This document shows positions 15,067 to 33,270 of a stretch of 33,270 nucleotides of DNA, piece by piece. The notes beneath the pieces are model-generated. The model was not told where the DNA came from. It was given only the letters and a program-made list of their open reading frames with translations, and ran no database searches. This DNA comes from Bacteroidia bacterium (GTDB lineage: Bacteria; Bacteroidota; Bacteroidia; Chitinophagales; UBA2359), in the NCBI GenBank assembly GCA_030427245.1, contig JAUHXA010000075.1, forward strand, positions 1 to 33,270, in the 5' to 3' direction. How positions within the stretch are numbered: the first letter of the stretch is position 1; the number at the start of each line of letters is the position of its first letter. The position numbers and the translations under genes were made by a program.

Positions 15067-15073
15067 TTTTTTA

Positions 15074-15107: not shown

Positions 15108-15169
15108 TTTTCTTACTTGATTTTGAACAAAACAATTACTAAAAAATATAAGTCCATTACTAAATGTGC

Positions 15170-15202: not shown

Positions 15203-15224
15203 CTTAAACCATTATCCAGTGTGA

Positions 15225-15281: not shown

Positions 15282-15290
15282 GACCAAGCC

Positions 15291-16241: not shown

Positions 16242-16245
16242 ACTA

Positions 16246-16384
16246 TGGATGCTTTTTGATTCAGTTGTTTCTTGGTTGATGCTATGGATGTTGTTGATAC
16301 TATTGGTTCTTGGTTGATGTTCTTTTTTCCTGTCATTCCGTAGGAATCTTGTGAGTAATTACTACAAAATGAATTTATTATCAA
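16246..16384 (-). repeat. arg intergenic repeat E1 with ATTCC/GGAAT hairpin
   Basis: It contains several TTGATRCTATGGAT-type units and TGTCATTCCGTAGGAATCTT with a 5-bp hairpin at 16335-16347, then a GTAATTAC...ACAAAAT tail. It lies directly upstream of argF'. The same pattern recurs upstream of argD and argC. Confidence 0.7.
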
Positions 16385-16429
16385 TTATTTTTGATTATAT
16401 CGAATTTCATTTTCTACTTCGGTTAAATT

Positions 16430-16453
16430 CGCCGACACCTGCAAGGTTCGGCG
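16430..16453 (-). terminator. imperfect hairpin 3' of argD
   Basis: CGCCGA (16430-16435) and TCGGCG (16448-16453), extended by ACCT/AGGT with one bulge around a GCA loop, form a strong hairpin 20 bp after the argD stop. It is not followed by a T-tract on the minus strand, so mRNA stabilisation or partial attenuation is as likely as termination. Confidence 0.4.
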
Positions 16454-16473
16454 ACATTTGTCCACACAAGCGT

Positions 16474-17616
16474 TCAATTCACCAATGAAGCCTCCAAAAC
16501 TTTCGACAAAATCCCCACAAAAACATCTGCTTCTCGCTCTGTAATATTCAAAGGCGGCAATAAGCGCATCACATTCGGATTAGAAGCCGAACCTGTAAAC
16601 AATTTTTCCCCAAAAAGCAATCGTTTACGCAAATCACCAATCGGATAATCAAACTCCAAACCAATCATCAAACCTTTTCCCCTGACTTCTTTTATCGCTT
16701 CAATCTCCTTCAATTGTGCCATCAAATACGCACCAACTTTTGCCGAATTTTCTACCAAATTTTCTTGTTCCATCACCTCCAAAACCGCCAATCCAGCCGC
16801 ACATGCCAAGTGATTCCCACCAAAAGTTGTCCCCAACAAGCCATATTTAGCTTCAAATTTTGAAGAAATCAAAACCCCTCCAATCGGAAAACCATTGCCC
16901 ATGCCTTTTGCGATGGTAATTAAATCGGGCTGAATATCAGCGTATTGATAGGCAAAGAATTTCCCACTTCTGCCATAACCCGACTGAATTTCATCCAAAA
17001 TCAAAACCACATCGTACATTTTGCAAAGACGAGACAAGCTCTCCAAAAAATCAGGTTTGGGTATTTGAATTCCTCCTATTCCTTGAATACCTTCAATAAT
17101 GACTGCACACACATTTCCTTCCTTCAAACTTTTTTCAACCGTTTCCAAATTGCCCCATTCATGCAGTTCCGCTTCAAAAGTCTTGTTGATAGGAGCTTGG
17201 ATTTTGGGATTGTCGGTGATATTGACGGCTGCCGAAGTTCGCCCATGAAAACCCTTTTCAAAAGCAATGATTTTGGTTTTGCCTGTCTCGAAAGAAGCCA
17301 ATTTCAAGGCATTTTCGTTGGCTTCTGCGCCCGAATTGCAGAGAAACAAATCGTAGTCATTGCAGCCCGACAATTCACCCAATTTTTCTGCCAATTCTAC
17401 TTGCAGTGGATTCTGTACCGAATTGGAGTAAAATCCCAATTTGGCGACTTGCTCCGAAATTCTTTGGACATAGTGCGGATGACTGTGTCCTATCGAAATA
17501 ACGGCATGACCTCCATAAAAATCTAAGTATTGATTGCCCTGTTTGTCAAAGACATAGCAGCCTTCTCCTTTGATGGGTTCGATGTCAAATAATGGATATA
17601 CGTCGAAAAGATTCAT
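16474..17616 (-). CDS. argD: N-acylornithine aminotransferase (class III PLP enzyme)
   Basis: The 380-residue protein has class III aminotransferase features: FYGGHAVISIGHSHP (33-47), the cofactor loop LCNSGAEANENALKLA (92-107), FHGRTSAA (123-130), the LILDEIQSGYGRSG motif (205-218) with Asp208, and the Schiff-base lysine in TIAKGMGNGFPIGG (Lys237), followed by GTTFGGNHLACAAG. It converts N-acylglutamate semialdehyde to N-acylornithine using glutamate. It lies between argC and argF' in the expected order. Other class III enzymes such as ornithine aminotransferase share the motifs, but the neighbours and length fit ArgD. The start at 17616 begins two helical turns before the conserved YPLFDIEPIKGEG. 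Confidence 0.95.
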   Translation of the reverse strand: MNLFDVYPLFDIEPIKGEGCYVFDKQGNQYLDFYGGHAVISIGHSHPHYVQRISEQVAKLGFYSNSVQNPLQVELAEKLGELSGCNDYDLFLCNSGAEANENALKLASFETGKTKIIAFEKGFHGRTSAAVNITDNPKIQAPINKTFEAELHEWGNLETVEKSLKEGNVCAVIIEGIQGIGGIQIPKPDFLESLSRLCKMYDVVLILDEIQSGYGRSGKFFAYQYADIQPDLITIAKGMGNGFPIGGVLISSKFEAKYGLLGTTFGGNHLACAAGLAVLEVMEQENLVENSAKVGAYLMAQLKEIEAIKEVRGKGLMIGLEFDYPIGDLRKRLLFGEKLFTGSASNPNVMRLLPPLNITEREADVFVGILSKVLEASLVN

Positions 17617-17705
17617 TTCTATTGATGCTTTTGTTTCTTAGTTGATACTATGGATTCTTGGTTGATGCTTTCTCACTATTCTGTCATTCCGTAGGAATCG
17701 TGTTT
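17617..17705 (-). repeat. arg intergenic repeat E2
   Basis: It contains TTGATACTATGGATTCTTGG, then TGTCATTCCGTAGGAATC with the hairpin at 17686-17698. It is adjacent to the argD start and matches E1 (16246-16384) and E3 (18788-18890). Confidence 0.7.
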
Positions 17706-17806
17706 GTTTTTTCTATTAAATTTTGCCCAAATAAACGGGTTTAAAAAAATATCAATACCATGACAACAAGATAAAGTGTGATTCCTCCGAATCCCCAAAT
17801 TCCTGT

Positions 17807-18787
17807 TCAGAATCCCACTCCCTTCAATCCCAATCCCGTCCTTTCCTCCAATCCAAACAGCAAATTCATATTTTGAACCGCCTGTCCAGATGCGCCCTTC
17901 AATAAATTGTCAATCATGCTGATAACCAGCAATATATTGTCGTGTTTCTCCAAATACAAGATGCACTTATTCGTATTGACCACCTGTTTTAAGTGTGGAT
18001 TGTTTTCACTCACCCATACAAAAGGATGGTCTGCATAATACTCTTCAAAAAGTGTTTTCGCTTCCTCCAATGTTCCTTCAAGTTCAGTATAAACCGTCGC
18101 CATAATTCCCCTCGAAAAATTGCCTCGAACAGGAATGAAATAGAGTTCTTGGTCAAAATCCGATTGAAGTTGCTGCAAACTTTGTTTGATTTCTGCAATG
18201 TGTTGGTGTTGAAAGGCTTTGTAAACCGACACATTGTTGTTTCTCCAGCTAAAATGCCCCGTTGCAGTGGGTTGTTGACCTGCGCCTGTCGAACCTGTAA
18301 TCGCTTGAATGTGAACGCTGTTTTTCAATAACTGCTCTTTGGCTAAGGGCAACAATGCCAATTGAATAGCGGTTGCAAAACAACCAGGATTGGCAACTTT
18401 TGACTGTTGCAGGATTTGCTCTTTTTGCAGCTCGGGCAATCCATAGATGAAATCATTGCCTGCTCTTTTGTGGCGAAAATCGCTGCTGAGGTCAATGATT
18501 TTTAAGTTTTTCTGCTCTTCAATTGCAGTTTGATGTAGCTCCAAAAACTCTTTGGATTTTCCATGTCCTGAACACAAAAATAATGCATCAATATTGAAGT
18601 CCACAGTGTTTGAAAAATGCAAATCGGTTTCTCCCAATAGGTCTTGGTGAACAGAATACACTGCTTCGTTTGCATGGCTATTGCTATGAATCCAAGTGAT
18701 TTGTGTGTTTGGATGGTGCAACAACAAGCGCAGCAATTCTCCTGCTGTGTAACCTGCTCCGCCGACTATGCCTATTTTTATACTCAT
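17807..18787 (-). CDS. argC: N-acyl-gamma-glutamyl-phosphate reductase
   Basis: The 326-residue protein starts with the Rossmann NADP-binding motif IGIVGGAGYTAGELLRLL (5-22). The catalytic cysteine is in VANPGCFATAIQLALLPL (Cys136). The general-base histidine region FQHQHIAEIKQ and the PVRGNFSRGIMATVY segment follow. It reduces N-acylglutamyl phosphate to the semialdehyde with NADPH. It sits between argG and argD on the same strand. The C-terminus GLLGLEERTGLG-type helix (here LLFGLEERTGLGLKGVGF) is typical of ArgC. The assignment is firm; whether its in vivo substrate is acetylated or succinylated depends on the pathway question raised by ArgF'. Confidence 0.96.
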   Translation of the reverse strand: MSIKIGIVGGAGYTAGELLRLLLHHPNTQITWIHSNSHANEAVYSVHQDLLGETDLHFSNTVDFNIDALFLCSGHGKSKEFLELHQTAIEEQKNLKIIDLSSDFRHKRAGNDFIYGLPELQKEQILQQSKVANPGCFATAIQLALLPLAKEQLLKNSVHIQAITGSTGAGQQPTATGHFSWRNNNVSVYKAFQHQHIAEIKQSLQQLQSDFDQELYFIPVRGNFSRGIMATVYTELEGTLEEAKTLFEEYYADHPFVWVSENNPHLKQVVNTNKCILYLEKHDNILLVISMIDNLLKGASGQAVQNMNLLFGLEERTGLGLKGVGF

Positions 18788-18890
18788 TGTTTCTTTATTG
18801 ATACTATGGATTTTTGGTGGATACCTTTTTGGATTGTCATTCCGCAGGAATCTTGTCGGTAATTATCACAAAATAGATTGATAATCAACC
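18788..18890 (-). repeat. arg intergenic repeat E3
   Basis: It contains TTGATACTATGGATTTTTGG, TGTCATTCCGCAGGAATCTT with the hairpin at 18839-18851, and a GTAATTATCACAAAAT tail resembling the E1 tail. It is adjacent to the argC start. Confidence 0.7.
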
Positions 18891-18963
18891 GTTTTAGAAT
18901 GTATCGGATTTCTGCCTTCAAAACTACAAGATGCTTACAGCATGGCAATATAAAACCTCTGTG

Positions 18964-20163
18964 TCACTGTGCCTCTGTGTTCAATTTGTTCACCGCCTGA
19001 TGAATCTTCAGTGGCGTACCCAATATTTTGATAAACCCTTTGGCATCATCTGCTGTCCACGCCTTGTTCATTTCACCATAGGACCCAAATTTGGCATTCA
19101 TCAAATCGTGAGGTGACTCAATTCCTTGCAGTTCAAAACGGTAAGGAAACAATTTGATGAAAACCTTACCCGAAACGGTTTCTTGCGAATTGTCCAAAAA
19201 GACTTCAATGTCTCTCATTACAGGCTCTAAATATTGCCCTTCGTGCAGCAACATTCCGTACCAGTTGCCCAATTGTTCTTTCCAATGTAATTGCCATTTT
19301 GAAAGTGTATGTTTTTCGAGAAGGTGGTGAGCCTTGAGGATGAGGGTAGAAGCAGCGGCTTCAAAACCAACCCGTCCTTTGATGCCAATGATGGTGTCTC
19401 CAACGTGAATATCTCGACCAATTGCATAGGCACTTCCTAATTTTTCGACCTCTTGAATGGCAGCTACGGAGTCCTCAAAATACGCTCCATTGACTCCTTT
19501 CAATTCACCTTTCACAAACTCCAATTCCAAGTCACTTGGTTCATTTTCTTGCAGTTGGCTTGGAAATGCTTCATTGGGCAGTCCCTCATTGGAGGTCAAA
19601 GTTTCCTTGCCGCCAACGCTTGTTCCCCACAATCCTTTATTGATGGAGTAAAGCGACTTTTCCCAATTTCCAGCTACGCCCAAATTTTGAAGGTATTCGA
19701 TTTCGGCTTGACGGGAGAGTTTTTGGTCACGGATAGGAGTGAGGATTTCGATTTCGGGAGCTAATATTTGAAAAGCCATATCGAAACGTACTTGGTCGTT
19801 GCCTGCGCCCGTGCTACCGTGTGCAATGTATTTTGCACCAATCAGTTGAGCGTATTTGATGGTTGCCATTGCCTGAAACATTCGCTCGGAACTCACTGAA
19901 AGCGGGTAAGTTCCATTTCGGAGAATGTTGCCGAAAATGAGGTATTTGATGCAGTTTCGATAATAGTTATCGGTTTCGTCCAAGCAGACGTGACTTTTGA
20001 CTCCCAAATTGTATGCTTTTGCTTCAATTTCTTCCAGTTCGGCTTCAGAAAAACCTCCTGTATTGACGATGGCAGAATGTACTTCTAAGCCTTTTTCTTG
20101 ACTCAAATATTTGACACAATAAGAAGTGTCCAATCCTCCACTGAATGCTAATACGACTTTCAT
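18964..20163 (-). CDS. argG: argininosuccinate synthase
   Basis: The 399-residue protein opens with the PP-loop ATP pyrophosphatase motif VLAFSGGLDTSYC (4-16), followed by the IVNTGGFSEAE region and IAHGSTGAGNDQVRFD, both characteristic of ArgG, then TPIRD and WGTSVGGKETL. It joins citrulline and aspartate with ATP in the cytoplasm. It lies 57 bp downstream of the GNAT gene, and argC follows. argH is not in the window. The length matches the family. The start at 20163 begins directly with the first beta strand. No anomalies were seen. Confidence 0.96.
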   Translation of the reverse strand: MKVVLAFSGGLDTSYCVKYLSQEKGLEVHSAIVNTGGFSEAELEEIEAKAYNLGVKSHVCLDETDNYYRNCIKYLIFGNILRNGTYPLSVSSERMFQAMATIKYAQLIGAKYIAHGSTGAGNDQVRFDMAFQILAPEIEILTPIRDQKLSRQAEIEYLQNLGVAGNWEKSLYSINKGLWGTSVGGKETLTSNEGLPNEAFPSQLQENEPSDLELEFVKGELKGVNGAYFEDSVAAIQEVEKLGSAYAIGRDIHVGDTIIGIKGRVGFEAAASTLILKAHHLLEKHTLSKWQLHWKEQLGNWYGMLLHEGQYLEPVMRDIEVFLDNSQETVSGKVFIKLFPYRFELQGIESPHDLMNAKFGSYGEMNKAWTADDAKGFIKILGTPLKIHQAVNKLNTEAQ

Positions 20164-20220
20164 ATTATTGATTTTTTATCACAGATTTATTTGATTGCAC
20201 AGATAAAGCGCAGATGTAGA

Positions 20221-20850
20221 TTATGACACTAATAATGGTTCAATTTTTTTTTCTTTTGATTCGATGCGACTGTATTTCATTTCTTTATTTTTCTGAATTC
20301 CCAACTCTTGTTTCTGTTCTTTTTCTGGGTCAAATAACATGGCCGTACACAAACAATGCTTTCTGCCCATTCGCATCAAAATATCGTGATTGACACAGCC
20401 CTTACAGCCTTCCCAGAACTTATCTTCGGATGGTATCAAGTTGAAAGTGACGGGTTTGTAGCCCAGTTCCGAATTGATTTTGAGAACAGGCAAACTGGTG
20501 GTCAAACCAAACAGTTTGGCGCTCGGATATTTTTTACGTGCCAATTCAAAAGCTTTTTCTTTGATGGCTTTGGCTACTCCCATTCCTCTGTATTTGGGAT
20601 TGACTATAAGTGCAGAGTTGGAGCTAAATTCACCATCTTGCCATATTTCTGCATAACAAAAACCCACCAAATCTTCACCACAGAGTGCAATTACAGCCTT
20701 GCCCGCTTCAATTTTGCCAGTAATCATTTCGGGAGGTCGTTTGGCAATGCCTGTGCCTCTTTGAGCAGCAGATTCTGCAATCAGTTGGCAGATGGCATGT
20801 GCATATACCGCATGATGCTTTTCAGCTACCATTATTTCGATAGTTTGCAT
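20221..20850 (-). CDS. GNAT acyltransferase, likely first enzyme of the acylated arginine pathway
   Basis: The 209-residue protein has the GNAT acyl-CoA-binding motif A in LIVNPKYRGMGVAKAIKEKAF (81-101; R-x-x-G-x-G/A pattern). After the GNAT core there is a cysteine-rich segment with Cys149, Cys152, Cys166 and Cys168 and a charged tail, unusual for a plain GNAT. Genes of this kind head the arginine cluster in Bacteroidota and are thought to make N-acylglutamate in place of ArgA. The arrangement here (first gene, 57 bp before argG) supports that role. The acyl donor may be succinyl-CoA if ArgF' is a SOTCase. The family is clear; the reaction is inferred from context. Confidence 0.82.
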   Translation of the reverse strand: MQTIEIMVAEKHHAVYAHAICQLIAESAAQRGTGIAKRPPEMITGKIEAGKAVIALCGEDLVGFCYAEIWQDGEFSSNSALIVNPKYRGMGVAKAIKEKAFELARKKYPSAKLFGLTTSLPVLKINSELGYKPVTFNLIPSEDKFWEGCKGCVNHDILMRMGRKHCLCTAMLFDPEKEQKQELGIQKNKEMKYSRIESKEKKIEPLLVS

Positions 20851-21743: not shown

Positions 21744-23129
21744 ATGCAAACAACAATAGAAATGAACACTTCCAAATTTATAGAAGCCAATCAACAGCGA
21801 TTTTTAGACGAACTATTTGATTTATTGCGTATCCCATCAATCAGTACTGACAGTAATTACAAAGAAGCCGTTCACAAAGCAGGTGAATTTATAGCCGAAA
21901 AATTGAAGGAAGCAGGCGCAGACAACGTGGAAATTTTTGAAACCAAAGGCAATCCAATAGCTTATGGCGAAAAAATCATAGACAAATCTCTGCCCACTAT
22001 TTTGGTTTATGGACACTATGATGTTCAGCCACCCGATCCGCTGGATTTGTGGACGACTCCACCTTTTGAGCCAACGATTCGAGACGAGAAAATTTATGCA
22101 CGAGGGGCTTGTGACGACAAAGGACAGATGTTTTCACACTTGAAAGCATTTGAGGCAATGATGCAAACCAATACACTTCCTTGCAATGTCAAATTCCTCA
22201 TTGAAGGCGAAGAAGAAATCGGTTCTCCCAACTTGTTACCTTTTGTCCGTGAAAATATTGAGAAATTGAAGGCAGATGTAGTTTTGATATCCGATACTTC
22301 AATGGTCGCAAACGATTGTCCTTCGATTACAGTCGGAACAAGAGGTATTGCAGCAGCCGAAATCGAATTGACAGGGCCTAATCGAGATTTACATTCAGGC
22401 ACTTATGGCGGTGCAGTAGGAAACCCTCTCAATGTTTTGAGTAAAATGATGGCTTCACTTCACGATGAAAACAAACATATTACCATCCCTGGATTTTACG
22501 ACAATGTAGAAGAACTTAGCCAAGCAGAAAGAGCAGAAATGGCAAAACGTCCTTTCAGTTTGAAGGCATACGAAAACTATTTGGAAATTGGTTCGGTGCA
22601 AGGGGAAGAAGGATTCAGTACCATCGAACGGGCTTCAATTCGCCCTACTCTGGATTTGAATGGTATGTGGGGAGGTTATTTGGGAGAAGGCACCAAAACC
22701 GTTTTGCCGTCTAAAGCCTACGCTAAAATTACGATGCGCCTCGTTCCCAATCAAAAGCCTGAGCGCATCATGGAGCTTTTCAAAAAGCACATTGAGAACA
22801 TTGCCCCCGATTCGGTCAAAGTAAAAGTCACCTTGGGACATGGCGCACCTCCAGCCGTTACCCCGACCGATTCGATTGCTTATCAAGCAGCTGCAAAAGC
22901 AATGGAAGCCACTTTTGGGAAAAAACCGATTCCAACACGTATGGGAGGAAGTATTCCAATTGTTGCGCTGTTTGAATATGAAATGGGCATCAAAACCGTC
23001 TTGATGGGCTTTGGCTTGAACGAAGATGCCATACATTCACCCAATGAATCTTATGGCCTGTTCAACTACTTCAAAGGAATAGAAACGATTCCGTACTACT
23101 ACCAATATTTTACGGAGTTGTCTAAATAA
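21744..23129 (+). CDS. M20 family dipeptidase
   Basis: The 461-residue metallopeptidase belongs to the M20 dipeptidase/carnosinase-like group. Metal and catalytic residues are visible: YGHYDVQPPDP (His91, Asp93), GACDDKGQ (Asp124), EGEEEIG (catalytic Glu157, metal Glu158) and a late EDAIHSPNESYG containing the final histidine ligand. The large dimerisation insert lies between about 215 and 350. It would cleave dipeptides to amino acids in the cytoplasm; no signal peptide is seen. A second start seven residues in (MNTSKFIEANQQRF) fits the domain equally well. It stands alone after a long control region, and an imperfect hairpin follows its stop. Specificity is unknown. Confidence 0.92.
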   Translation: MQTTIEMNTSKFIEANQQRFLDELFDLLRIPSISTDSNYKEAVHKAGEFIAEKLKEAGADNVEIFETKGNPIAYGEKIIDKSLPTILVYGHYDVQPPDPLDLWTTPPFEPTIRDEKIYARGACDDKGQMFSHLKAFEAMMQTNTLPCNVKFLIEGEEEIGSPNLLPFVRENIEKLKADVVLISDTSMVANDCPSITVGTRGIAAAEIELTGPNRDLHSGTYGGAVGNPLNVLSKMMASLHDENKHITIPGFYDNVEELSQAERAEMAKRPFSLKAYENYLEIGSVQGEEGFSTIERASIRPTLDLNGMWGGYLGEGTKTVLPSKAYAKITMRLVPNQKPERIMELFKKHIENIAPDSVKVKVTLGHGAPPAVTPTDSIAYQAAAKAMEATFGKKPIPTRMGGSIPIVALFEYEMGIKTVLMGFGLNEDAIHSPNESYGLFNYFKGIETIPYYYQYFTELSK

Positions 23130-23204: not shown

Positions 23205-23738
23205 TCAATATAGAATGTTGTAGGTCAAAATTTGTAATCCTTCTTCAAAAGATTCTCTTTCCTGCAACTCCAATTGATAATGTTTGGATATATTTCCGAA
23301 AAGTCCGATTCCACCTCCCAAAATCAAAGGATTGAGTTTGACCTTCAATACATCAATTAATTCGTTCTCGAGCAACCAACCTGCAAATTGTCCACCTCCA
23401 CAAAGGTAAATAGGTGTTCCATCCTCTTGCTTCAAGGCTTCTATTACCGACAAATCGGGTTTGCAGACTTTCACTTTATCATTTGGAGTGTTAAAAACCA
23501 AAGTATTGGAGAATATGTAGTGCTTCATGTGAGGGTAAGCAGGTTCTCCAGCTTTCAGCCCATATTGATAACCAAACTCATAAGTTTTTCTGCCCATAAT
23601 GACGGTATCAAAATCCTGTAAATCATTCAAGTACTTTTCTACTCCCTTTCCGCTTTGAACAAAACCACTGATGTCGCCGTTTTTTCCTTCAATAAAGCCA
23701 TCAATAGAAATGGCTACATAGTAAATTATTTTTCGCAT
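23205..23738 (-). CDS. dihydrofolate reductase/RibD-C family protein
   Basis: The 177-residue protein has the start YYVAISIDGFIEGKNGDISGF (6-26), VIMGRKTYEFGYQYG (46-60) and the nucleotide-binding IYLCGGGQFAGWLL (110-123), then VKLNPLILGGGIGLF. This is the YyaP/YwjB-type NADPH-binding fold, related to the RibD reductase domain and to DHFR, but it lacks an obvious folate-site signature. The specific reduction is unknown. It is a single gene, convergent with the dipeptidase gene and divergent from the ATP-grasp unit. The family is confident. Confidence 0.88.
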   Translation of the reverse strand: MRKIIYYVAISIDGFIEGKNGDISGFVQSGKGVEKYLNDLQDFDTVIMGRKTYEFGYQYGLKAGEPAYPHMKHYIFSNTLVFNTPNDKVKVCKPDLSVIEALKQEDGTPIYLCGGGQFAGWLLENELIDVLKVKLNPLILGGGIGLFGNISKHYQLELQERESFEEGLQILTYNILY

Positions 23739-23831
23739 TTGTTTGAACGTTAATTTCTAAATTAAACTCTTATCTAAGCAGATAAGTTCCAAAAAGAAAG
23801 GAAAACCTTCACTTCAAACAAGCTGAATATT

Positions 23832-23839
23832 TACTTTTG
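23832..23839 (+). promoter_or_regulatory. candidate -7 element for the ATP-grasp unit
   Basis: TACTTTTG fits TAnnTTTG, about 148 bp before the start of the first gene of the unit. No clear -33 element is seen. Confidence 0.25.
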
Positions 23840-23986
23840 ACGCTCAAATTATAATTGATTTCTAATCGTCATTTATTTTAATGTTAATTTTCATTTTTTT
23901 GAAAAAAATAGTGACTAATTCAGTTATTAAAGTCTATTATTGCGGCTTAAAAAATAGCACAAAACCCCAAATTAATAACAAGATTT

Positions 23987-25450
23987 ATGTCAAACGAAGG
24001 AACTACTAAACATCATGCCCAAATCATTGAAGGAGGAACGTTTGAAGCAGAAGATCATTGGTATCCCAAAGCCTTAAATTCTACGATACACCCCATGATC
24101 AACTTCTTTTTGAATTTGGACAAGGAGCGTATTGTCAATCGTTACTGTCATTTGCATCCGATGGTAAAGCGTGAGAAGTTAGCAGAATTGTTAGACTACG
24201 AATGTAAATATTTTATGTGGGCAGGGGCAGACCTTATCAATGTGACCTCCGCAAAAGGAAAGCGACAAATGGTTGTCATCGAAAACAACTCTTGTCCTTC
24301 GGGTCAAAAATCCATGCCCTTGCGAGACGATCATCAAGAAGAAGGAAGCTACCGACTTTTGATAGAGCGTACTTTCAAGCCATTTTTGAAATCTAAGCGA
24401 GGCGCACCCAGAATTAAAGGTGGATTGGCAGTCATTCATGACAAAAACCCAATGGAAACTTTGGGCTATGCCAAAGTGATTGCCGACGTATTTGAAGAGC
24501 CTGTTTATTATGTCAGTTTTCACGAAGATGACTTAGATCCTCCCGTGAAATTTGAAGATGGAATTATGTTTGTGCGAACCGAAGATGGGGAATGGCATCA
24601 AATCAGAGCTGCCTTTCGCTATGTCACCCAACGCCCCTGGAATCGCATTCCCCTGCATACCAAAACCCGAATATTAAACCCCATTATTGCTTGTTTGACA
24701 GGTGGAAGAAACAAAATGGTCGCAGCAAAGGCTTACGATTTTTTCAATTCCGAAATTCGAGAATATGGATTGAAAATCATTACTCCCGAAACCATCTGGG
24801 ATGTCAGCAAAGCCGAAATTCCACTATGGGTTAGAAAAATGGGTGGCCAAGCGGTTATCAAAATTCCCTATAGCAATGCAGGGCAAGGCGTTTTTACGAT
24901 TGTCACCGAAAAAGAATTGGAGGCTTTCATGGCACAGGAGTTCAAATACGAGCGATTCATTGTCCAAAGTTTGATAGGTAACTATCAGTGGAGCTCTACA
25001 AGTTCGGAAGGCAAGTTTTACCATGTCGGAACAATTCCCAATGCCAAAGGAAACACCTTTGTGTTTGACCTTCGGATGATGGTCAGTAGCACCAAAAAAG
25101 GAATTCGACCACTAGTTGTTTATTCTCGAAGAGCGGCCAAACCTTTGGTCGACTACATTGAAGCGAGCAGCGATTCTTGGGAAATGTTGGGAACGAATCT
25201 TTCTGTCAAGAATCCAGATGGAGGTTGGGGAAGTGATACCAACCGATTATTGCTGACCGACCGCCGAGACTTCAATAAATTGGGCATTGGTTTGGACGAT
25301 TTGATAGAAGCTTATATCCAAACCCTGTTGTCCACTATTGCCATCGACAAAATGGCACAAACGCTCACCAATGCCAAAGGCAGGTTCAGTATGCGACTCT
25401 TCAAACCCTTGAACGATGACAAGACATTGGTGGACGAAATAACCCTTTGA
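23987..25450 (+). CDS. ATP-grasp-like protein of unknown substrate
   Basis: I do not recognise a named family for this 487-residue protein, but it has the texture of an ATP-grasp ligase: MVVIENNSCPSGQKSM (95-110), NKMVAAKAYDFF (242-253), a lysine in AVIKIPYSNAGQGVF (289-303; cf. the nucleotide-binding Lys of ATP-grasp), ERFIVQSLIG (322-331) and a late VFDLRMMVS (359-367) with LGTNLS (401-406). No signal peptide is present. It heads a three-gene unit with a GshB-type ligase 48 bp downstream and an AstE/AspA-type deacylase 32 bp after that, so a shared amide- or peptide-bond chemistry is suggested. The ATP-grasp call is an inference from motif order and is unverified. Confidence 0.65.
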   Translation: MSNEGTTKHHAQIIEGGTFEAEDHWYPKALNSTIHPMINFFLNLDKERIVNRYCHLHPMVKREKLAELLDYECKYFMWAGADLINVTSAKGKRQMVVIENNSCPSGQKSMPLRDDHQEEGSYRLLIERTFKPFLKSKRGAPRIKGGLAVIHDKNPMETLGYAKVIADVFEEPVYYVSFHEDDLDPPVKFEDGIMFVRTEDGEWHQIRAAFRYVTQRPWNRIPLHTKTRILNPIIACLTGGRNKMVAAKAYDFFNSEIREYGLKIITPETIWDVSKAEIPLWVRKMGGQAVIKIPYSNAGQGVFTIVTEKELEAFMAQEFKYERFIVQSLIGNYQWSSTSSEGKFYHVGTIPNAKGNTFVFDLRMMVSSTKKGIRPLVVYSRRAAKPLVDYIEASSDSWEMLGTNLSVKNPDGGWGSDTNRLLLTDRRDFNKLGIGLDDLIEAYIQTLLSTIAIDKMAQTLTNAKGRFSMRLFKPLNDDKTLVDEITL

Positions 25451-25498
25451 AAACTTCAAAATTCACTCCTTACACCTAAATTTCTGACTTTTTAATTT

Positions 25499-26506
25499 AT
25501 GAAATACAAAATCCTGAGTCTCACAGACCATAGCGGACACAGCGCAGAAAATTCGTTGTATGCTCTCATGCGAACGATGCTTCAACACCCTGACTGTAAA
25601 AGTATTGATGTGGTTAGTCGTGGGAATTCTGCAAACAATGCTTTTTTCTATGACTTCAATAGTACCCAACTTCAAGGTACAAGAATAGATAAAAATTTTG
25701 ATTTCCAGACAGATGGCAGGCAGTTTTTGCAGGAGACGATTACCTGTGATTTGAAGGACTACGATGTCGTTATGATGCGATTGCCGAGACCAATACCTGC
25801 TGGTTTTTTTGACTTTTTGAAGCAAAGTTTTCCCGAAAAATACATCATCAATCGCCCAAGTGGAATCAAAACGACAAGCTCCAAACAGTACTTGCTCAAC
25901 TTTCCCGAAGTCTGTGCCCCGATGCAATTGTGTGAAACCGTAGAGGATATTCTTCGCTTCAAAGAGCGTTTTCCCATTGTATTGAAGCCCTTACGAAATT
26001 ATGGTGGAAAAGGGATTGTAAGAATAGAAGGCGAGCAAGTTTTTTACGAAGATTCGGTGATAAATTTTGACACTTTTTTACCGACTCTGCAAGAGAATTT
26101 GGCAACAGATGGGGCGTATTTGGGCATGAAATTTTTGAAAAATGTCAGTCAAGGCGACAAACGAGTTATTTTAGTGAATGGACAAATTTTGGGTGCTTCT
26201 TTGCGTTTGCCTCCCAAAGATTCGTGGATGTGCAATGTGGCTCAAGGAGGAAGTTCGGTTGGCTCAGAAGCGGATGAGGAGGAACAATTGATTGCCCAAA
26301 CTATTAGTCCTCATTTGTTGAAGGAAGGTATAGTGGTTTGTGGCTTTGATACTTTGGTAAACGATGAAGGAAAACGCGTTTTATCCGAAATCAATACGCT
26401 AAGTGTGGGCGGATTGCCGCAAGCGGCGCAACAATCTGGGCGACCTATAGTAAAACAAGCAGTAGATTTGATTTTTGATTATATCAGAAGTCAGTGGAAT
26501 AACTAA
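25499..26506 (+). CDS. ATP-grasp ligase of the glutathione synthetase/RimK type
   Basis: The 335-residue protein has a GshB-like layout: an N-terminal pre-ATP-grasp domain ending in VVMMRLPRPIP (90-100), INRPSGIKTTSSKQYLLNF (117-135) as the substrate-linked NPxGI-type motif, VLKPLRNYGGKGI (161-173, Lys163), FLKNVSQGDKRVILVNGQ (212-229, Arg222), CGFDTLVN (281-288) and the metal ligands in LSEINTLSVGG (Glu297, Asn299). It would activate a carboxylate as an acyl phosphate and join it to an amine. The substrate is not glutathione by necessity; no GshA is seen here. It is the second gene of a compact unit, followed 32 bp later by a zinc deacylase. Confidence 0.88.
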   Translation: MKYKILSLTDHSGHSAENSLYALMRTMLQHPDCKSIDVVSRGNSANNAFFYDFNSTQLQGTRIDKNFDFQTDGRQFLQETITCDLKDYDVVMMRLPRPIPAGFFDFLKQSFPEKYIINRPSGIKTTSSKQYLLNFPEVCAPMQLCETVEDILRFKERFPIVLKPLRNYGGKGIVRIEGEQVFYEDSVINFDTFLPTLQENLATDGAYLGMKFLKNVSQGDKRVILVNGQILGASLRLPPKDSWMCNVAQGGSSVGSEADEEEQLIAQTISPHLLKEGIVVCGFDTLVNDEGKRVLSEINTLSVGGLPQAAQQSGRPIVKQAVDLIFDYIRSQWNN

Positions 26507-26538
26507 AATAACATTTATAAACATCAAAATACAACTAA

Positions 26539-27510
26539 ATGGACATAAAAGTAATAGACAAATTAGACATTGAGAAAGCTCCAAAAGGAAAGATTACCCG
26601 TTTTTGGGTACATTTAATTTCTGATGGAATGGGCAATGGAATGAATGTTCCTGTAATTGTGGCAAGAGGTATGGAAGATGGACCTGTATTGGGAGTGACA
26701 GCAGCTGTACATGGGGATGAACTCAATGGAATTCCTGCGATTCAGAGGTTGTTTGGCGAATTGGATGTGACCGAACTTCGAGGAACGGTCGTTGGAGTAC
26801 CTGTTGTGAATGTGCCAAGTTTTATGCGTAAACAGAGACGCTTCAACGATGGGACAGATCTCAATCACATCATGCCTGGTAAAATAGATGGCAATGTCAG
26901 TCAAGTCTATGCTTACCGAGTTTTTCACCGCATCATACACCAGTTTGAGTATCTATTGGATTTACATACGGCAAGTTTGGGGCGGGTTAATTCCTATTAT
27001 GTTCGAGCAGATATGAGTGAGCCAATTACAGCAAAAATGGCTGAGCTTCAACACGCTCAAATCGTGGTTGACAATCCTCCTTCCGACGGAACATTGAGGG
27101 GTGCAGCCAACGAAGCGGGGATTCACGCTATTACCCTAGAAGTGGGCAATCCTAATCGTTTTCAAAAAGGTATGATTCGTTCTGGATTGATTGGGATTCA
27201 CAATGTTTTGGCTTACTTAAAAATGACGGACGATACCATCGAAACGCCCGAAACCCCGACTGTTTACTGCAAAGATTCTAAATGGATCTATACCGATACA
27301 GGCGGCTTGCTTTCGGTGATTCCAGAGGTGACTCAACTGGTACAAGCAGGGGAGTTAATTGCCACGATTCGCAATGTATTTGGCGACATAAGACAGAATT
27401 ATTACGCTCCCAATGATGGGATTGTGATTGGTAAAAGCGTGAGTCCTGTGAATCAATCGGGCGGAAGAGTCCTACACCTAGGCGGATTTGAGTTTTTGAG
27501 AGAAGTGTGA
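26539..27510 (+). CDS. succinylglutamate desuccinylase/aspartoacylase family zinc deacylase
   Basis: The 323-residue protein belongs to the AstE/AspA branch of M14-like enzymes. The zinc motif is in VTAAVHGDELNGIPA (His58, Glu61) with the third ligand in LLDLHTASLG (His143). The likely catalytic glutamate is in ITLEVGNPNRFQK (Glu201), and DLNHIMPG (107-114) lies at the substrate-binding site. It would remove an acyl group from an N-acyl amino acid or hydrolyse a related amide. It follows two ATP-grasp genes closely, so it may trim or recycle their product. A role in N-succinyl amino acid metabolism is possible given the neighbouring arginine pathway, but that is speculation. The C-terminus carries an extra all-beta segment (YYAPNDGIVIGKSVSPV). 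Confidence 0.87.
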   Translation: MDIKVIDKLDIEKAPKGKITRFWVHLISDGMGNGMNVPVIVARGMEDGPVLGVTAAVHGDELNGIPAIQRLFGELDVTELRGTVVGVPVVNVPSFMRKQRRFNDGTDLNHIMPGKIDGNVSQVYAYRVFHRIIHQFEYLLDLHTASLGRVNSYYVRADMSEPITAKMAELQHAQIVVDNPPSDGTLRGAANEAGIHAITLEVGNPNRFQKGMIRSGLIGIHNVLAYLKMTDDTIETPETPTVYCKDSKWIYTDTGGLLSVIPEVTQLVQAGELIATIRNVFGDIRQNYYAPNDGIVIGKSVSPVNQSGGRVLHLGGFEFLREV

Positions 27511-27542
27511 AGGCAGGATATTTGAGTTTGTCTTATTTTATT

Positions 27543-30263
27543 CTACAAGAACAACTTTCCTTGTTCTATTCCTCCCTTCACATCTTCTTCCTCCACCTTC
27601 TTTTTTGCAGCTGCAGCTTTCTTCTTTGCCTCTGCTTCCTTAGCGACCTCCTCGTGTTTATTCTTTGCCGAAACCAATGTCACTTCATATACTTTATGAA
27701 AGTTCCCCAATTTATTACCTATCGCAGAGCGACCTTTGATGTCAATAAACTCCGAAACATTCAGGCGTTCGGTCATTTTTTCACCCCGTAGTTTTTCATT
27801 GTAGAGATAATCCACAATCACCTCATCTCCAATGGCCGCAAGAAGCAGGTAAGACCCATGATTTTCGGGCAAAAAGCTAAATTTTTCGCTCAAAGTAGTC
27901 GTGTCAATTTGGAAGCGTTTGACGTAGTAGGTTTTGTTTGATGCTCGATAATAGATAGCATTGACCACCATATCGGGATGGAATTTGCGAATGTCAATCG
28001 TCTTTTTCATATCAAAGCGGTTGGTCAATTCAAAGTCGGTCATTTCGTAAGAACCGTCCTCGTGCAAGACCAAAATCGTGTCTCCTGTATCAAATTCGCC
28101 TAACAATCTGCCACGTTGTTTGGTGTTCAATCGTCCGACTGATTCGTCTAACCAAATCTTGCGTCCGCCCAAAGTCGCAGTACCAACTTCCATTTGTCGA
28201 ACCTTGGCTATGGGATATTTCGTAAGGACATTTCCTCTCGAAGTGCGCCCCTTTATCGCCAAATCTGCAAAATCGTATTCCAATGTTTTCACCTTTGCCT
28301 TGCTGCGGGGATGCAGTTTGATTTCTACCATTTCGGATTCGCTATTGGGATGCACTTCAAAGTAGTGCAATTTGGAACGAGAATGATTGGTCATCATATT
28401 GTACTCTCGGTCACGCGTGACAGCCGTCACTGCAAAGCGTTTGACATAGCACCTTTCGCTCTTTCCATCAAAATAAATGGCGTGGTAAATGCGCCTTTCT
28501 TCGCCTTTTTTCCAAACCGCAACATGGATAATGTCTTTGCCCACAAAGGCTTTGTCCGAAATCTTAGTGACCAAATAATTGCCATCTTTGCGGAACACGA
28601 TGATGTCGTCAATGTCCGAACAGTCACACACATATTCTTCCTTCTTCAATCCATAGCCAATAAATCCGCCCTTTCTATCGACATAGAGTTTCTCGTTGGC
28701 AACCGCAACCGTAGCGATTTGAATGGTATCAAAATTGGCGATTTCGGTTTTGCGTTCTCTGCCTTTGCCGTATTTTTTCAGCAAATTGTTGAAGTAGTCC
28801 ACCGCAAATTGCACCAAATTGGCGAGATGGTGTTTGATTTCTGCAATCTGCTCCTCCAATGCCTTAATCGCATCTTTGGCTTTGAAGGTATCGTATTTGG
28901 AGATTCGTTTGATGCGTATTTCTATCAGTCGCAAAATATCGTCACGAGTCACCTCTCTTACAAAATGTTTGGTGTATCGCTTCAAGGATTTATCAATGAT
29001 TTCGATAACCTCCTCAAAAGTCTCTGCTACTTCAATCTTGCGGTAGATGCGTTTTTCGATGAAAATCTGCTCCAATGACGCAAAATGCAGCTTTTCGAGT
29101 AGTGCCGCCAAGTTGATTTCCAATTCGCTTTTGAGCAAACCAACTGTGTATTCTGTAGAACGACGCAGCAAATCATTGGTGCTGGTAAACACGGGTTTGT
29201 CGTCAATAATCACACAACAGTTTGGCGCAATCGAGACCTCACAATCCGTAAACGCATAAAGTGCATCCATCGTCACATCAGGCGATACGCCTGCGGGCAA
29301 TTCTACCAAAATTTCTACATCTTTGGCAGTATTGTCGGTGACACGTTTGATTTTGATTTTGCCCTTTTCATTTGCCTTCACAATCGAGTCCATCACACTC
29401 GAAGTCGTCTTGCTATATGGAATCTCGCGGATAATCAAAGTGCGCTTATCGGGAGATTCGATTTTGGCTCGAACCCGCACACGACCTCCGCTTTGTCCTT
29501 CTTTGTAGTTGGAAAAATCAGCCGAACCGCCAGTATCAAAATCGGGCAAAACTTGCACCGTTTTTCCCTTCAATATGTCAATCGAAGCCTTAATCAACTC
29601 GATGAAATTGTGCGGCAATATGCGAGTCGACAAACCCACTGCAATCCCTTCTACTCCCTGCGCCAACAAAAGCGGAAACTTCATCGGCAAATAAACAGGC
29701 TCTTGCTTTCGACCATCGTAGGACAACTGCCATTCAGTGTTTTCCTTGTTGAACGCCACTTCAAGGGCAAACTTGGACAATCGCCCTTCAATGTATCGAG
29801 CTGCCGCCGCACTGTCCCCTGTTCGGTAATCTCCCCAGTTTCCCTGTGTTTCGACCAACAAATCTTTCTGCCCCAATTTGACCAAGGCATCGTAAATCGA
29901 AGCATCCCCATGCGGATGATACTGCATCGTCTGCCCAACGACATTGGCGATTTTGTGAAACCGTCCATCGTCCATCTGCTTCAATGCATGAAGGAGGCGA
30001 CGCTGTACGGGCTTCAATCCGTCCTCCATATACGGAACGGCTCTATCCAAAATCACATAAGAGGCATAGTCCAAAAACCAATTTTCGTACAATCCCTTCA
30101 AGGAGGTGATGTTCTGCAATTCGCCATCTTCTTCGTCTTCCTCCGACAAATTGTCCTCATTTTCGTTGACTTCCGTTGGCTTCAATTCGCCATTGTTGCT
30201 GTGATGGTTATTTTCTTCTGAGTTATTTAGTTCTGTATTGTTATTGTTGTTTTCTTCTGACAT
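27543..30263 (-). CDS. parC: DNA topoisomerase IV subunit A
   Basis: The 906-residue protein is a type IIA topoisomerase A subunit, which breaks and rejoins DNA to unlink chromosomes. After a low-complexity acidic N-terminus (1-50, rich in Asn, Glu and Asp) comes the breakage-reunion domain: ILDRAVPYMEDGLKPVQRR (71-89), QYHPHGDASIYDALV (114-128), and the catalytic tyrosine in AAARYIEGRLS (Tyr157). The C-terminal domain has beta-propeller blades and a Lys/Ala/Glu-rich tail. The YIEGR sequence favours ParC over GyrA, but GyrA cannot be ruled out by motif alone. No parE/gyrB is adjacent; a repeat-rich gap lies upstream. It converges with the zinc deacylase gene. Confidence 0.9.
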   Translation of the reverse strand: MSEENNNNNTELNNSEENNHHSNNGELKPTEVNENEDNLSEEDEEDGELQNITSLKGLYENWFLDYASYVILDRAVPYMEDGLKPVQRRLLHALKQMDDGRFHKIANVVGQTMQYHPHGDASIYDALVKLGQKDLLVETQGNWGDYRTGDSAAAARYIEGRLSKFALEVAFNKENTEWQLSYDGRKQEPVYLPMKFPLLLAQGVEGIAVGLSTRILPHNFIELIKASIDILKGKTVQVLPDFDTGGSADFSNYKEGQSGGRVRVRAKIESPDKRTLIIREIPYSKTTSSVMDSIVKANEKGKIKIKRVTDNTAKDVEILVELPAGVSPDVTMDALYAFTDCEVSIAPNCCVIIDDKPVFTSTNDLLRRSTEYTVGLLKSELEINLAALLEKLHFASLEQIFIEKRIYRKIEVAETFEEVIEIIDKSLKRYTKHFVREVTRDDILRLIEIRIKRISKYDTFKAKDAIKALEEQIAEIKHHLANLVQFAVDYFNNLLKKYGKGRERKTEIANFDTIQIATVAVANEKLYVDRKGGFIGYGLKKEEYVCDCSDIDDIIVFRKDGNYLVTKISDKAFVGKDIIHVAVWKKGEERRIYHAIYFDGKSERCYVKRFAVTAVTRDREYNMMTNHSRSKLHYFEVHPNSESEMVEIKLHPRSKAKVKTLEYDFADLAIKGRTSRGNVLTKYPIAKVRQMEVGTATLGGRKIWLDESVGRLNTKQRGRLLGEFDTGDTILVLHEDGSYEMTDFELTNRFDMKKTIDIRKFHPDMVVNAIYYRASNKTYYVKRFQIDTTTLSEKFSFLPENHGSYLLLAAIGDEVIVDYLYNEKLRGEKMTERLNVSEFIDIKGRSAIGNKLGNFHKVYEVTLVSAKNKHEEVAKEAEAKKKAAAAKKKVEEEDVKGGIEQGKLFL

Positions 30264-30676: not shown

Positions 30677-32326
30677 TTATTTACTCAACACCTCAACCTC
30701 CCAATCGCTCACGTTTCGTTTGTGGTTGTCAAAACAAATACCCATCAAGATAATTTGCTTAGAGGCATTGCGGAAAGAAGCAGCGTATTCTCGTTCCCTA
30801 ATTTGAGTCATTGCAGTTTTGGCCGTTCCTCCCAGTTTAAATTCGATGATATAGAGGTAGTCGTCCACTTCAATTTTGGCATCCATTCGCCCTTGATGCT
30901 TGCTGACTTCACAATCTATGTGTAAACCAATGTATTTGATAGTCAAGTAAATAACAGTTTGAAAATAGCCTTCCCATGCTTTGAAATAATCTTGTTTGTC
31001 TTCTTCGGTGGGTTCTTTTTTGTTCAAGGTCGGCAATAGGTGATGGGAAATATCTGCAAAAATGACCTTCAATTGCTCGATAAATTCGTGGGTATCTCCA
31101 TTTATCAGAGCATCCTCCAAAAACTCCAATGCTGTACCCAAATTACCTGCTGTTTTGTTGGAATAGACCTCCAAGAGATGGTGTAAAAAAGAGCCTTTGA
31201 CCTCCAAGTTTGGATAGCCCAAATGATAGTTTTGTTTTCGTCGCTGTTTGTCATAGTCCGTTTTTTTTATGGTCAAATAACCTGTTTGAAACAACAACAT
31301 TTGCACGTCCAAGGTTTCTTTTTTATCAGAGGAAGGTTTTAATTCAAATTTATTGAAGAATTGGCTATTGACTTTTAGGTTTTCCAAATCTCCCAAGTTC
31401 GCTTTTTGCCTTTTTAGTCGTTTGACCAAAAAAGTGGGCGTTCCAGACTGAAACCAATAATTGTCAAAGCGGTGCTTTCTAAGAAAGTTCATCAAAGATT
31501 GTGGATTATATACATAAACTTCTCCATCCCAAGAATAGCCATCGTACCAAGCTTTTATGTGTTTCAAAAGTTCGGCTTCGTCCATATTGGTGTGCTTTCC
31601 TGCCACTTCCAAATATCCTTTGAAATAATGCTTCAACTCAGATTCCGTGATTCCCAACAAGTCTGTGGTTGATTCATCCAATGTCAAATCTGTCAGATTG
31701 TTCAAGTCTGAAAAAATAGACACTTTTGAGAATTTGGTCACGCCTGTAATGAACACCATTTGAAGACAGTCCATTATCTTTAAATCCTTCAATACCCCAA
31801 AAAAACCTTTCAATATTTCTCGATTGGCATCTGCCTTTGGAAAATCGTCTATGAAGTCAATGATGGGTTTGTCGTACTCATCAATCAATACGGCTACTGT
31901 TCCTTTTTTGGCATATAATTTTTGAATGAGTTCTGAAAATTGACTTTGGACAGTTTCATCCTCCAATTGTAGGTCGTATTCTATTGCAATGTCTTTCAAC
32001 GATTTTTTCAAGCCTTCTACCAAACCCAAATCCCGATAGTCCACACCATTGAAAGACAACAAGATAACGGGATATTCTTCCCAATTCCAACGCTCCTCTT
32101 CTCCTATCCACAAACCTTCAAATAATTCTTTTTTGCCCTTGAAAATGGCATTCATGGTAGAAAGCAAGAGGGATTTTCCGAAACGTCGAGGGCGAGAGAG
32201 AAAATAGTATTTTCCGCCTGTCAAAAGTTGGTGAATTTGACGGGTTTTGTCGACATACAACCAGTTTCTGGTTCTAATGACCTTAAAACTGGCTTCTCCT
32301 AATGGTAAGACTTGTAAGTTTTGCAT
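30677..32326 (-). CDS. predicted AAA-ATPase with C-terminal PD-(D/E)XK nuclease domain
   Basis: With the start at 32326 (MQNLQVLPLGEASF) the protein has 549 residues; a frame from 32479 would add an unconserved 51-residue leader. The N-terminal ATPase shows a Walker A-like RPRRFGKS (45-52) and Walker B in AVLIDEYDKPII (145-156). The C-terminal nuclease-like domain shows GRMDAKIEVDDYLYIIEFKLGG (about 506-527), with the D...E-x-K core. This matches the DUF1703/PDDEXK_9 type of protein, expanded in many Bacteroidota with no known function; a mobile or defence link is speculative. It lies between the topoisomerase and TPR genes with no operon partner. Confidence 0.87.
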   Translation of the reverse strand: MQNLQVLPLGEASFKVIRTRNWLYVDKTRQIHQLLTGGKYYFLSRPRRFGKSLLLSTMNAIFKGKKELFEGLWIGEEERWNWEEYPVILLSFNGVDYRDLGLVEGLKKSLKDIAIEYDLQLEDETVQSQFSELIQKLYAKKGTVAVLIDEYDKPIIDFIDDFPKADANREILKGFFGVLKDLKIMDCLQMVFITGVTKFSKVSIFSDLNNLTDLTLDESTTDLLGITESELKHYFKGYLEVAGKHTNMDEAELLKHIKAWYDGYSWDGEVYVYNPQSLMNFLRKHRFDNYWFQSGTPTFLVKRLKRQKANLGDLENLKVNSQFFNKFELKPSSDKKETLDVQMLLFQTGYLTIKKTDYDKQRRKQNYHLGYPNLEVKGSFLHHLLEVYSNKTAGNLGTALEFLEDALINGDTHEFIEQLKVIFADISHHLLPTLNKKEPTEEDKQDYFKAWEGYFQTVIYLTIKYIGLHIDCEVSKHQGRMDAKIEVDDYLYIIEFKLGGTAKTAMTQIREREYAASFRNASKQIILMGICFDNHKRNVSDWEVEVLSK

Positions 32327-32468
32327 GGTTTGGTTTGAAGGTTTTGGTGGGTGAAGATACGCAAAAAAAACTGCCTTGAAACAGGAAGGCTTAATGAAAA
32401 AGAAGCATATTGGGTGTTGGTGTTTTCCGTGTTCAGTTAAGAAATTCCTTTCTATTAAACCTTCTTGT

Positions 32469-33270
32469 TCAAAAACCAATCCCCTTTTCCTTCAATACCG
32501 CCTCTACATCGACCTCCCAAGCCTTCAAAACCTGTATTGCTGTCTTAGCACACTGCATCACAACAGGCACCTGCTGAAAACGAAGCGCTATCAACACCAC
32601 CTCCGTAGCCAATTCCACCGAAACCTTTTTATCGGGCTGAGATTGCAGATAAAAAATGCTGAGGTTCACCATCGTCATCGCTACATAAGGTAAAAAAGCT
32701 TGTGGATTTGCCTCGGCTAATCTTCTTCTGATGTCTAATGCTTCGGTGTAGGCTTGAAGGGCTTGGGGGAACTCATTTTTAGCCTTGTGTAAAACCGCCA
32801 AATTATTCAAGGTAGTAGCGACATAAGGTAAAAAAGCTTGTGGATTTGCCTCGGCTAATCTTCGATATATGTCTAATGCTTCGGTGTAGGCTTGAAGGGC
32901 TTGGGGGAACTCATTTTTATCACTGTGTAAAACCGCCAAATTATTCAAGGTTCCAGCGACATCTGGTAAAAAAGCTTGTGGATTTGCCTCGGCTAATCTT
33001 CTTCTGATGTCTAATGCTTCGGTGTAGGCTTGAAGGGCTTGGGGGAACTCATTTTTAGCCCTGTGTAAATTAGCCAAATTATTCAAGGTAGTAGCGACAG
33101 AAGGTAAAAAAGCTTGTGGATTTGCCTCGGCTAATCTTCTTCTGATGTCTAATGCTTCGGTGTAGGCTTGAAGGGCTTGGGGGAACTCATTTTTATCACT
33201 GTGTAAAACCGCCAAATTATTCAAGGTAGTAGCGACATCTGGTAAAAAAGCTTGTGGATTTGCCTCGGCT
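32469..33270 (-). CDS. TPR repeat protein, C-terminal part (runs off right edge)
   Basis: The frame is open to base 33270, so the N-terminus is missing; 267 residues are visible. Four or more 46-residue units of the form LNNLAVLHSDKNEFPQALQA, then YTEALDIRRRLAEANPQAFL, occur in tandem. They match tetratricopeptide helices with a spacer, and pack as a protein-protein interaction solenoid. The C-terminus is a different helical segment (TMVNLSIFYLQSQPDKKVSV and beyond to GIGF). The repeats are nearly identical at the DNA level (138-bp period), which implies recent duplication or gene conversion. The partner is unknown. Related proteins in this phylum often carry N-terminal effector domains, which cannot be checked here. 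Confidence 0.88.
   Translation of the reverse strand, partial: AEANPQAFLPDVATTLNNLAVLHSDKNEFPQALQAYTEALDIRRRLAEANPQAFLPSVATTLNNLANLHRAKNEFPQALQAYTEALDIRRRLAEANPQAFLPDVAGTLNNLAVLHSDKNEFPQALQAYTEALDIYRRLAEANPQAFLPYVATTLNNLAVLHKAKNEFPQALQAYTEALDIRRRLAEANPQAFLPYVAMTMVNLSIFYLQSQPDKKVSVELATEVVLIALRFQQVPVVMQCAKTAIQVLKAWEVDVEAVLKEKGIGF
32683..33270 (-). repeat. 138-bp tandem repeats inside the TPR gene
   Basis: The same landmark (GCG before AC) recurs at 32818, 32956, 33094 and 33232, exactly 138 bp apart. The units differ by only a few bases, for instance at CACTG/CCCTG/CTTGTG and ATCT/AAGG/GAAG positions. The array continues beyond the window. Confidence 0.85.

Follow-up and report, generated by a model that had tools for sequence, protein, structure and literature searches.

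The bifunctional glutathionylspermidine synthetase/amidase of E. coli (GspSA) pairs a synthetase with a hydrolase, a cysteine amidase, and is tied to polyamine biosynthesis. YgiC and YjfC are peptide–spermidine ligases, according to a reference cited in the excerpt of PMC12568646 consulted; the same excerpt describes the E-64 pathway, whose product combines an acid with an amino acid and an amine (putrescine or agmatine, for instance), the amine being added by an enzyme of another class, Cp1D. In the excerpt of PMC9992855, SpeY, a bacterial homologue of deoxyhypusine synthase (DHS), converts putrescine to homospermidine, and genes for homospermidine synthase of the HSS type cluster with those for glutathionylspermidine synthetase. 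The RimK/RimB and Rlo systems combine genes for an ATP-grasp ligase and a retropepsin-like hydrolase, and the Rlo proteases are needed under hypo-osmotic stress (PMC12239564, excerpt). Here we analyzed a three-gene unit, A-B-C, in a 33,270-nucleotide contig (JAUHXA010000075.1, assembly GCA_030427245.1; the whole stretch is called the window) of a probably aquatic Bacteroidia bacterium. The original prediction, made from the window alone, read the unit as two ATP-grasp proteins and a zinc deacylase that make and trim a peptide, an amino-acid conjugate or a protein tail, an interpretation that our results partly support. The reading we favor, with confidence a little short of even, is that a small-molecule conjugation is written by A and reversed by C, its amine most likely being a polyamine, with B or a RimK protein as accessory ligase. 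A search of titles and the opening parts of abstracts revealed no publication on this combination of genes, which the amidoligase paper of Iyer et al. 2009 may mention.

The genes for A (487 amino acids (aa), 23987–25450), B (335 aa, 25499–26506) and C (323 aa, 26539–27510) are plus-strand open reading frames (ORFs) with ATG starts, separated by 48 bp (A-B) and 32 bp (B-C), exactly as first described. To follow the unit elsewhere, neighbors of A were called as mechanical ORFs of ≥60 aa with a BLAST match (E ≤ 1e-6) to one reference protein each, a procedure that misses divergent members and gives approximate gene starts. Loci whose A was ≥95% identical to another were dropped, which reduced 78 A loci to 66 and took L123 out of a larger set, counted as 88 non-redundant loci; L024 and L027 (by hand), the short loci L029–L065 and L113 (no A) were also dropped. 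Of the 66 loci, 57 had C on the strand of A within three ORFs of it; by the same measure, 39 had a B-type ligase (GSH-S-like or RimK), 27 lacked one, and 38 had both C and the ligase. The A-B-C arrangement is not due to chance, and the co-occurrence in other genomes on which the original prediction had staked its case was found. When Bdellovibrionota loci were added, C (≥250 aa, either strand) was within six ORFs of A in 75 of the 88 non-redundant loci. Pairwise distances of A and C in 75 loci were correlated (r = 0.876), part of which shared ancestry alone could give because the comparison held no control gene. In the 34 loci with all three genes, distance correlations were 0.71 for A-B, 0.83 for A-C and 0.76 for B-C, at mean identities of 66% (A), 43% (B) and 60% (C); B evolves faster than A and C and is often absent. 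A conserved core of A and C, paired across several phyla, with B more loosely attached, is thus well supported. The general idea of ligases and a deacylase acting on amides stood, given the fold of A (below) and the co-occurrence, whereas the trio as a fixed unit gave way to an A-C pair with a variable B.

Of the 13 loci scored as lacking C, L002 has a C cut by the contig end, L089 a short one (237 aa) and L139 one seven ORFs off, and L010 and L132 end soon after A. L079, where C is five ORFs from A, was scored as a miss in the count of 57. Of 18 whole genomes with A that were searched, 16 also gave a match to C, which was weak in one case. A 709-aa open frame in genome G462, considered as a C-A fusion, turned out to consist of separate genes in different frames.

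The distribution of A was patchy. One scan revealed 28 loci with A relatives of 55–70% identity, in records labelled as Bacteroidota groups, Bdellovibrionota groups, Cyanobacteria, Cloacimonadota and Patescibacteria, and close relatives came from records labelled Lewinella and Saprospiraceae, which makes that part of Bacteroidota the probable origin of the window. The cultured Neolewinella persica DSM 23188 has all three genes (L004). The identity of 88 other A loci to the A of the window ranged from 49 to 72%. Carriers numbered 9 of 395 genomes in a phylum sample, 40 of 198 in an order sample and 25 of 191 in Bdellovibrionota, the phylum of the Bacteriovoracaceae genome G583. Neighborhoods were examined for all 40 carriers of the order (the window plus 16, 20 and 3) and for four further genomes outside it; the 23 Bdellovibrionota loci are the 25 carriers minus G583 and G584, whose loci were already in the set. 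Breadth in cyanobacteria was rejected, since the sole carrier among 244 genomes, Leptolyngbya G582, was the chosen center of that sample. A distribution so scattered, at such high identity, suggests horizontal transfer. A was found in none of the plasmid, phage and viral-contig collections searched, and a role in anti-phage defence was discarded after no match in PADLOC.

The profile searches of A against Pfam and NCBIfam gave no family above cut-off; the known unrelated family that the original prediction had allowed for did not appear. The best E among 27 A members against Pfam was 0.025 (3 of the 27), and sequence searches of the PDB gave no significant match. An AlphaFold2 model built from 27 sequences reached a pLDDT of 81.8, and one from 89 sequences reached 94.1 with a pTM of 0.94. 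With the A model, Foldseek reached E ≤ 0.001 for 28 PDB entries; the ones listed were ATP-grasp proteins or synapsin C domains, with 3n6x (5.8e-09), the yeast and human glutathione synthetases (GSS) and Cp1B of fungal E-64 biosynthesis (9cjn, 8.4e-08) at the top. In VIA-align comparisons the best match was 3k1t, a putative gamma-glutamylcysteine synthetase of Methylobacillus flagellatus (Z 17.5, 331 residues, root-mean-square deviation (rmsd) 4.1), yet at 11% identity. A mutually tied second tier at Z ~13–14 comprised LysX/ArgX, YjfC (7uk6, 13.7), D-Ala ligases (Ddl), the E. coli GspS/amidase (2ioa, 13.5) and GSS; YgiC (7uka) scored 12.9, and the TTLL6 and RimK structures 11.6–12.2. Absence of a family from these lists does not exclude it. 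The ATP-grasp fold of A is well supported by the predicted structure, which bears out the earlier label "ATP-grasp-like", and because of the fold matches A is very probably an amide ligase; the model places it in the structural group of glutathione synthetase, glutathionylspermidine synthetase and 3k1t.

Six residues of A (E99, N101, K292, D361, R363 and N404) were invariant in 89 sequences and, judged by their positions, may serve in ATP and Mg binding. The E99-x-N101 motif precedes the K292...NAGQGV stretch. By hhalign, the former aligned with the E-x-N at the C-terminal end of RimK and the latter with the ATP loop of B, with probabilities of 19.5% and 1.5%, respectively; both matches cover short segments only and are too weak to prove the ATP-grasp assignment by sequence profile. 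Taken together, the motif order, the weak profile matches and the full-length GSS-type matches suggest that A is a circularly permuted ATP-grasp enzyme.

C matched AstE_AspA_cat (E 1.8e-32, 112.9 bits) above the Pfam gathering threshold of 25, and its sequence relatives in the PDB, including 3cdx, 3na6 and the DoeB deacetylases 6twm and 6twl, were small-molecule deacylases and a few peptidases. It fell below the equivalog cut-offs of both DoeB (69.9 vs 402.7 bits) and AstE (18.8 vs 305.65 bits). H58, E61, H143 and E201 were invariant in 18 sequences, and we take them to be the zinc ligands and the catalytic glutamate of the family. Judged by sequence, C is an AstE/AspA-type zinc deacylase or amidase, in agreement with the original prediction. 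In aspartoacylase, the Arg following the conserved DLN binds the substrate carboxylate. Among 88 ORFs assigned to C, redundant loci included, this position was Arg in 47, His in 35 and Ala in 1, and the motif was absent in 5; the replacement of Arg, often by His, gives a hint that the leaving group of the substrate of C may not always carry a carboxylate.

The middle protein had been taken for a GshB/RimK-type ligase. B matched GSH-S_ATP (E 2e-26, 92.9 bits, Pfam gathering threshold 23, passed) and the RimK Pfam family (E 1.2e-07), and 1gsa was its nearest solved relative by sequence (E 1.5e-12). Both GshB equivalog cut-offs were missed by far (127.7 vs 272 and 117.7 vs 299.05 bits), and in L018 and L028 a RimK-type protein occupies the position of B. 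By these matches, B is a GSH-synthase-like ATP-grasp ligase, accessory and variable. As a separate observation, another ligase–deacylase pair, a RimK gene adjoining a second AstE/AspA-type gene, lay near A-C in L014 (2359–4310), L018 (3–2068) and L119.

The structural likeness of A to 3k1t and the sequence similarity of B to 1gsa could also point to an alternative low-molecular-weight thiol pathway, with A as a 3k1t-type gamma-glutamylcysteine synthetase and B as glutathione synthase. We consider this very improbable. 3k1t presumably belongs to the Pfam GshA family PF08886, which was unmatched in the genome of the window up to E = 10 and likewise was not listed for the 27 A members. In addition, B scores far below the GshB cut-offs and is often absent where C is kept, and no role for a deacylase in ordinary glutathione synthesis is known.

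Clustering of the proteins encoded around A revealed polyamine genes, namely a pyridoxal-phosphate-dependent decarboxylase (SpeA-like; best NCBIfam match biosynthetic arginine decarboxylase, below cut-off), an agmatinase (SpeB, above the NCBIfam cut-off) and a protein of the deoxyhypusine synthase family (DHS-like, PF01916), present in 10, 8 and 6 of the 66 A stretches, respectively. In L079, the six genes share a strand in the order A, SpeA, SpeB, DHS, B, C and are spaced by 23, −20, −4, 13 and 4 bp; polyamine genes lay downstream of C in L078 and L100, and upstream of A in L070, L098 and L105. SpeA was within 10 kb of A in 7 of the 35 genomes of the order with both genes, representing seven genera (G395, G470, G509, G530, G554, G567 and G573), and DHS in 6 of 13; in G567, SpeA directly precedes A-B-C and no DHS match was found. 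The chance of such proximity under random placement was ~9e-11 for SpeA and ~6e-12 for DHS, values that presume independent random placement, one copy and a 5.4 Mb genome, and that are too extreme, gene order being shared among related genomes. The loci L068 and L070 belong to genomes outside the order, and in L134 of Bdellovibrionota, RimK and DHS genes 16 bp apart lie 2.1 kb upstream of A. In the genome of the window, SpeA and DHS are on another contig (C150), away from A-B-C, and the stretch of G462 (L066) contains no SpeA. Since A and C travel together, sometimes inside polyamine operons, the pair may load a polyamine with an amino acid or small peptide and unload it again. Of the peptide, amino-acid conjugate and protein tail that the original prediction had left side by side, these neighborhoods favor small-molecule conjugation with polyamines.

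Two further proteins recurred in this setting. A small protein of 90–145 aa, mostly with a strongly acidic C-terminal tail, was located near A in 8 of 66 loci (L070, L074, L076, L081, L082, L100, L102 and L105), often adjoining DHS; the copies of L082 and L100 had no Pfam match. A protein of ~505–517 aa, whose L018 copy has a C-terminal CN_hydrolase domain, was located near A in L018 (10937–12457), L023 and L109, and between SpeB and DHS, away from A, in two A-bearing genomes (L142 and L143).

The locus shares features with described polyamine systems. As with GspSA, a synthetase is paired with a hydrolase and tied to polyamine biosynthesis, and the ligase fold of A is like that of GspSA, YgiC and YjfC; unlike in GspSA, the two activities would reside on separate genes, and C is a zinc enzyme of another fold. 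As in the HSS clusters (PMC9992855, excerpt), a ligase gene of the structural group of A lies beside homospermidine genes, whereas the synthase here is DHS-like (SpeY-type) and A represents a different ligase family. The likeness to E-64 biosynthesis lies in Cp1B; the amine of E-64 is added by Cp1D, unlike in the route considered for A, and an AstE/AspA enzyme, present here as C, is unmentioned in the excerpt of PMC12568646.

Several observations weigh against polyamine conjugation by A and C. C was absent from the stretch in eight loci (L028, L067, L108, L109, L110, L121, L126 and L135), and was not found in the searched genomes of L010 and L028. The Foldseek TM-scores of the A matches were low (0.37–0.42, rmsd 11–15), and the GSP synthase Pfam family was not among the five families reached at E ≤ 0.1 by the 27 A members. 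Of the 198 genomes of the order, 181 have SpeA; the gene was not within 10 kb of A in 28 of the 35 with both, the genome of the window included, and is adjacent to DHS in genomes that gave no A (L147 and L150–L152). Among the matches listed for the 23 Bdellovibrionota loci, DHS appeared in L134 only. Moreover, DHS was rarer in genomes with A than in those without, both in the order (13 of 40 vs 108 of 158; Fisher P 5e-05) and in Bdellovibrionota (10 of 25 vs 119 of 166; Fisher P 0.003); homospermidine is therefore not required, and a strict dependence on it is ruled out by these counts.

Other neighbors of A gave osmotic hints. MscS genes were present in 8 of 50 Bacteroidota stretches against 0.64 expected from seven A-carrying genomes, a conservative comparison because a Pfam model served for the background count, whereas the loci were scored through BLAST to a single protein. 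A LysR gene lay directly upstream of A in 11 of the 23 Bdellovibrionota loci, and the LysR of L014, the only copy tested, had NhaR as best NCBIfam match, below cut-off. L019 contained a calcium/sodium antiporter gene, and kinase and PP2C phosphatase genes were located near A in L018, L019, L021 and some Bdellovibrionota loci. Polyamines are named as osmolytes, and glutamate-modification genes including K05844 are commoner in brackish genomes (PMC10219603, excerpt).

These hints would suit a pathway for a small peptide or N-acyl amino acid, such as a di- or tripeptide compatible solute, which A and B would make and C would degrade or trim of its acyl group, the polyamine genes being nearby through a shared salt or osmotic response. 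Besides the MscS excess and the LysR genes with their NhaR-like copy, it draws on the annotation of 3k1t as an amino-acid ligase, on the DoeB deacetylases among the nearest solved relatives of C, which act on N-acetyl-diaminobutyrate, and on the lack of DHS from most A-bearing genomes. On its own, however, it leaves unexplained both the SpeA-SpeB-DHS insertion between A and B in L079 and the varied placements of polyamine genes in L070, L078, L098, L100 and L105. We regard it as the main rival, somewhat less probable than polyamine conjugation; the protein-tail and glutathione routes are less likely still.

In the protein-tail alternative, A and B or RimK would add residues to a protein and C would remove them, in the manner of RimK and RimB acting on ribosomal protein S6 (PMC12239564, excerpt). 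This precedent, the RimK-type proteins in the place of B and the small acidic-tailed proteins near A are in its favor, and the combination of ATP-grasp ligase and hydrolase genes is common to RimK/RimB, Rlo and the present locus. We nevertheless judge it improbable. The top-ranked Foldseek matches of A are small-molecule ligases, despite the TTLL6 and RimK similarity in VIA-align; the acidic protein was not found by BLAST in the other 58 loci; and C has small-molecule deacylases and a few peptidases as its PDB sequence relatives. The locus also differs from those systems in that their hydrolases are retropepsin-like and in that A scored 14.6 bits against TIGR00768 (RimK family) at a cut-off of 143.4.

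In the window, the A-B-C unit is flanked by minus-strand genes for a RibD_C-domain protein (23205–23738) and a topoisomerase subunit A (27543–30263). Promoter-like matches in 23700–27600 numbered 7 (8.6 in shuffled sequence) and terminator-like matches also 7 (4.2 in shuffled sequence), counts that are uninformative. An upstream M20 dipeptidase gene (21744–23129) was considered as a fourth member and rejected, as none of the other 65 loci listed showed it in the vicinity of A. Elsewhere in the window, all on the minus strand, 30677–33224 contains a 600-aa AAA-ATPase_like/PDDEXK_9 protein and a second protein built of near-identical TPR repeats. An arginine-biosynthesis-like cluster occupies 14293–20850, with an amino-acid kinase, the ornithine/aspartate carbamoyltransferase family and a GNAT protein by Pfam, and argD, argC and argG read from the ORF sequences only. 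In 6239–11901, a sulfotransferase (PF03567) and a carbamoyltransferase (PF02543/PF16861) lie among glycosyltransferase-looking ORFs. In other genomes, relatives of a SET-domain protein, ~200 aa long and assigned to PF00856 in L008, were near A in the Bacteroidota loci L005, L008, L094 and L108.

In the polyamine-conjugation reading that we favor, A would use ATP to phosphorylate an amino acid or short peptide on a carboxylate, the acyl-phosphate route usual for ATP-grasp enzymes, and then join it to an amine. The most likely amine is a polyamine or its precursor, of the kind made by SpeA, SpeB and SpeY (DHS-like): agmatine, putrescine, homospermidine or spermidine. Where present, B or RimK would add a further amino acid to the product or prepare the peptide donor, C would hydrolyze the amide, and the cycle might serve in salt or osmotic adjustment; we infer all substrates, the direction in which C acts and the physiological role. 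The system may work like GspSA and is not GspSA itself, because A does not match the GSP synthase family in Pfam and C belongs to another family. A fuller picture, which we hold as somewhat doubtful, is that of a patchy, probably horizontally moving and glutathione-independent polyamine-conjugation module, with A as a new ATP-grasp writer, C as a zinc eraser and interchangeable GSH-S/RimK extenders, tuned to osmotic or sodium conditions. Operons of the L079 type unite the amine-making enzymes with the hydrolase and the candidate ligases, which would allow a single reconstitution to put the entire proposal to the test. A highly conserved family, nameless in the Pfam and NCBIfam copies searched, gains a predicted fold and a testable substrate class. 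If the idea is true, reversible polyamine conjugation would extend beyond glutathionylspermidine and trypanothione to a second, differently built form in several phyla, and there would be a set of bacterial peptidyl-polyamines hitherto undescribed.

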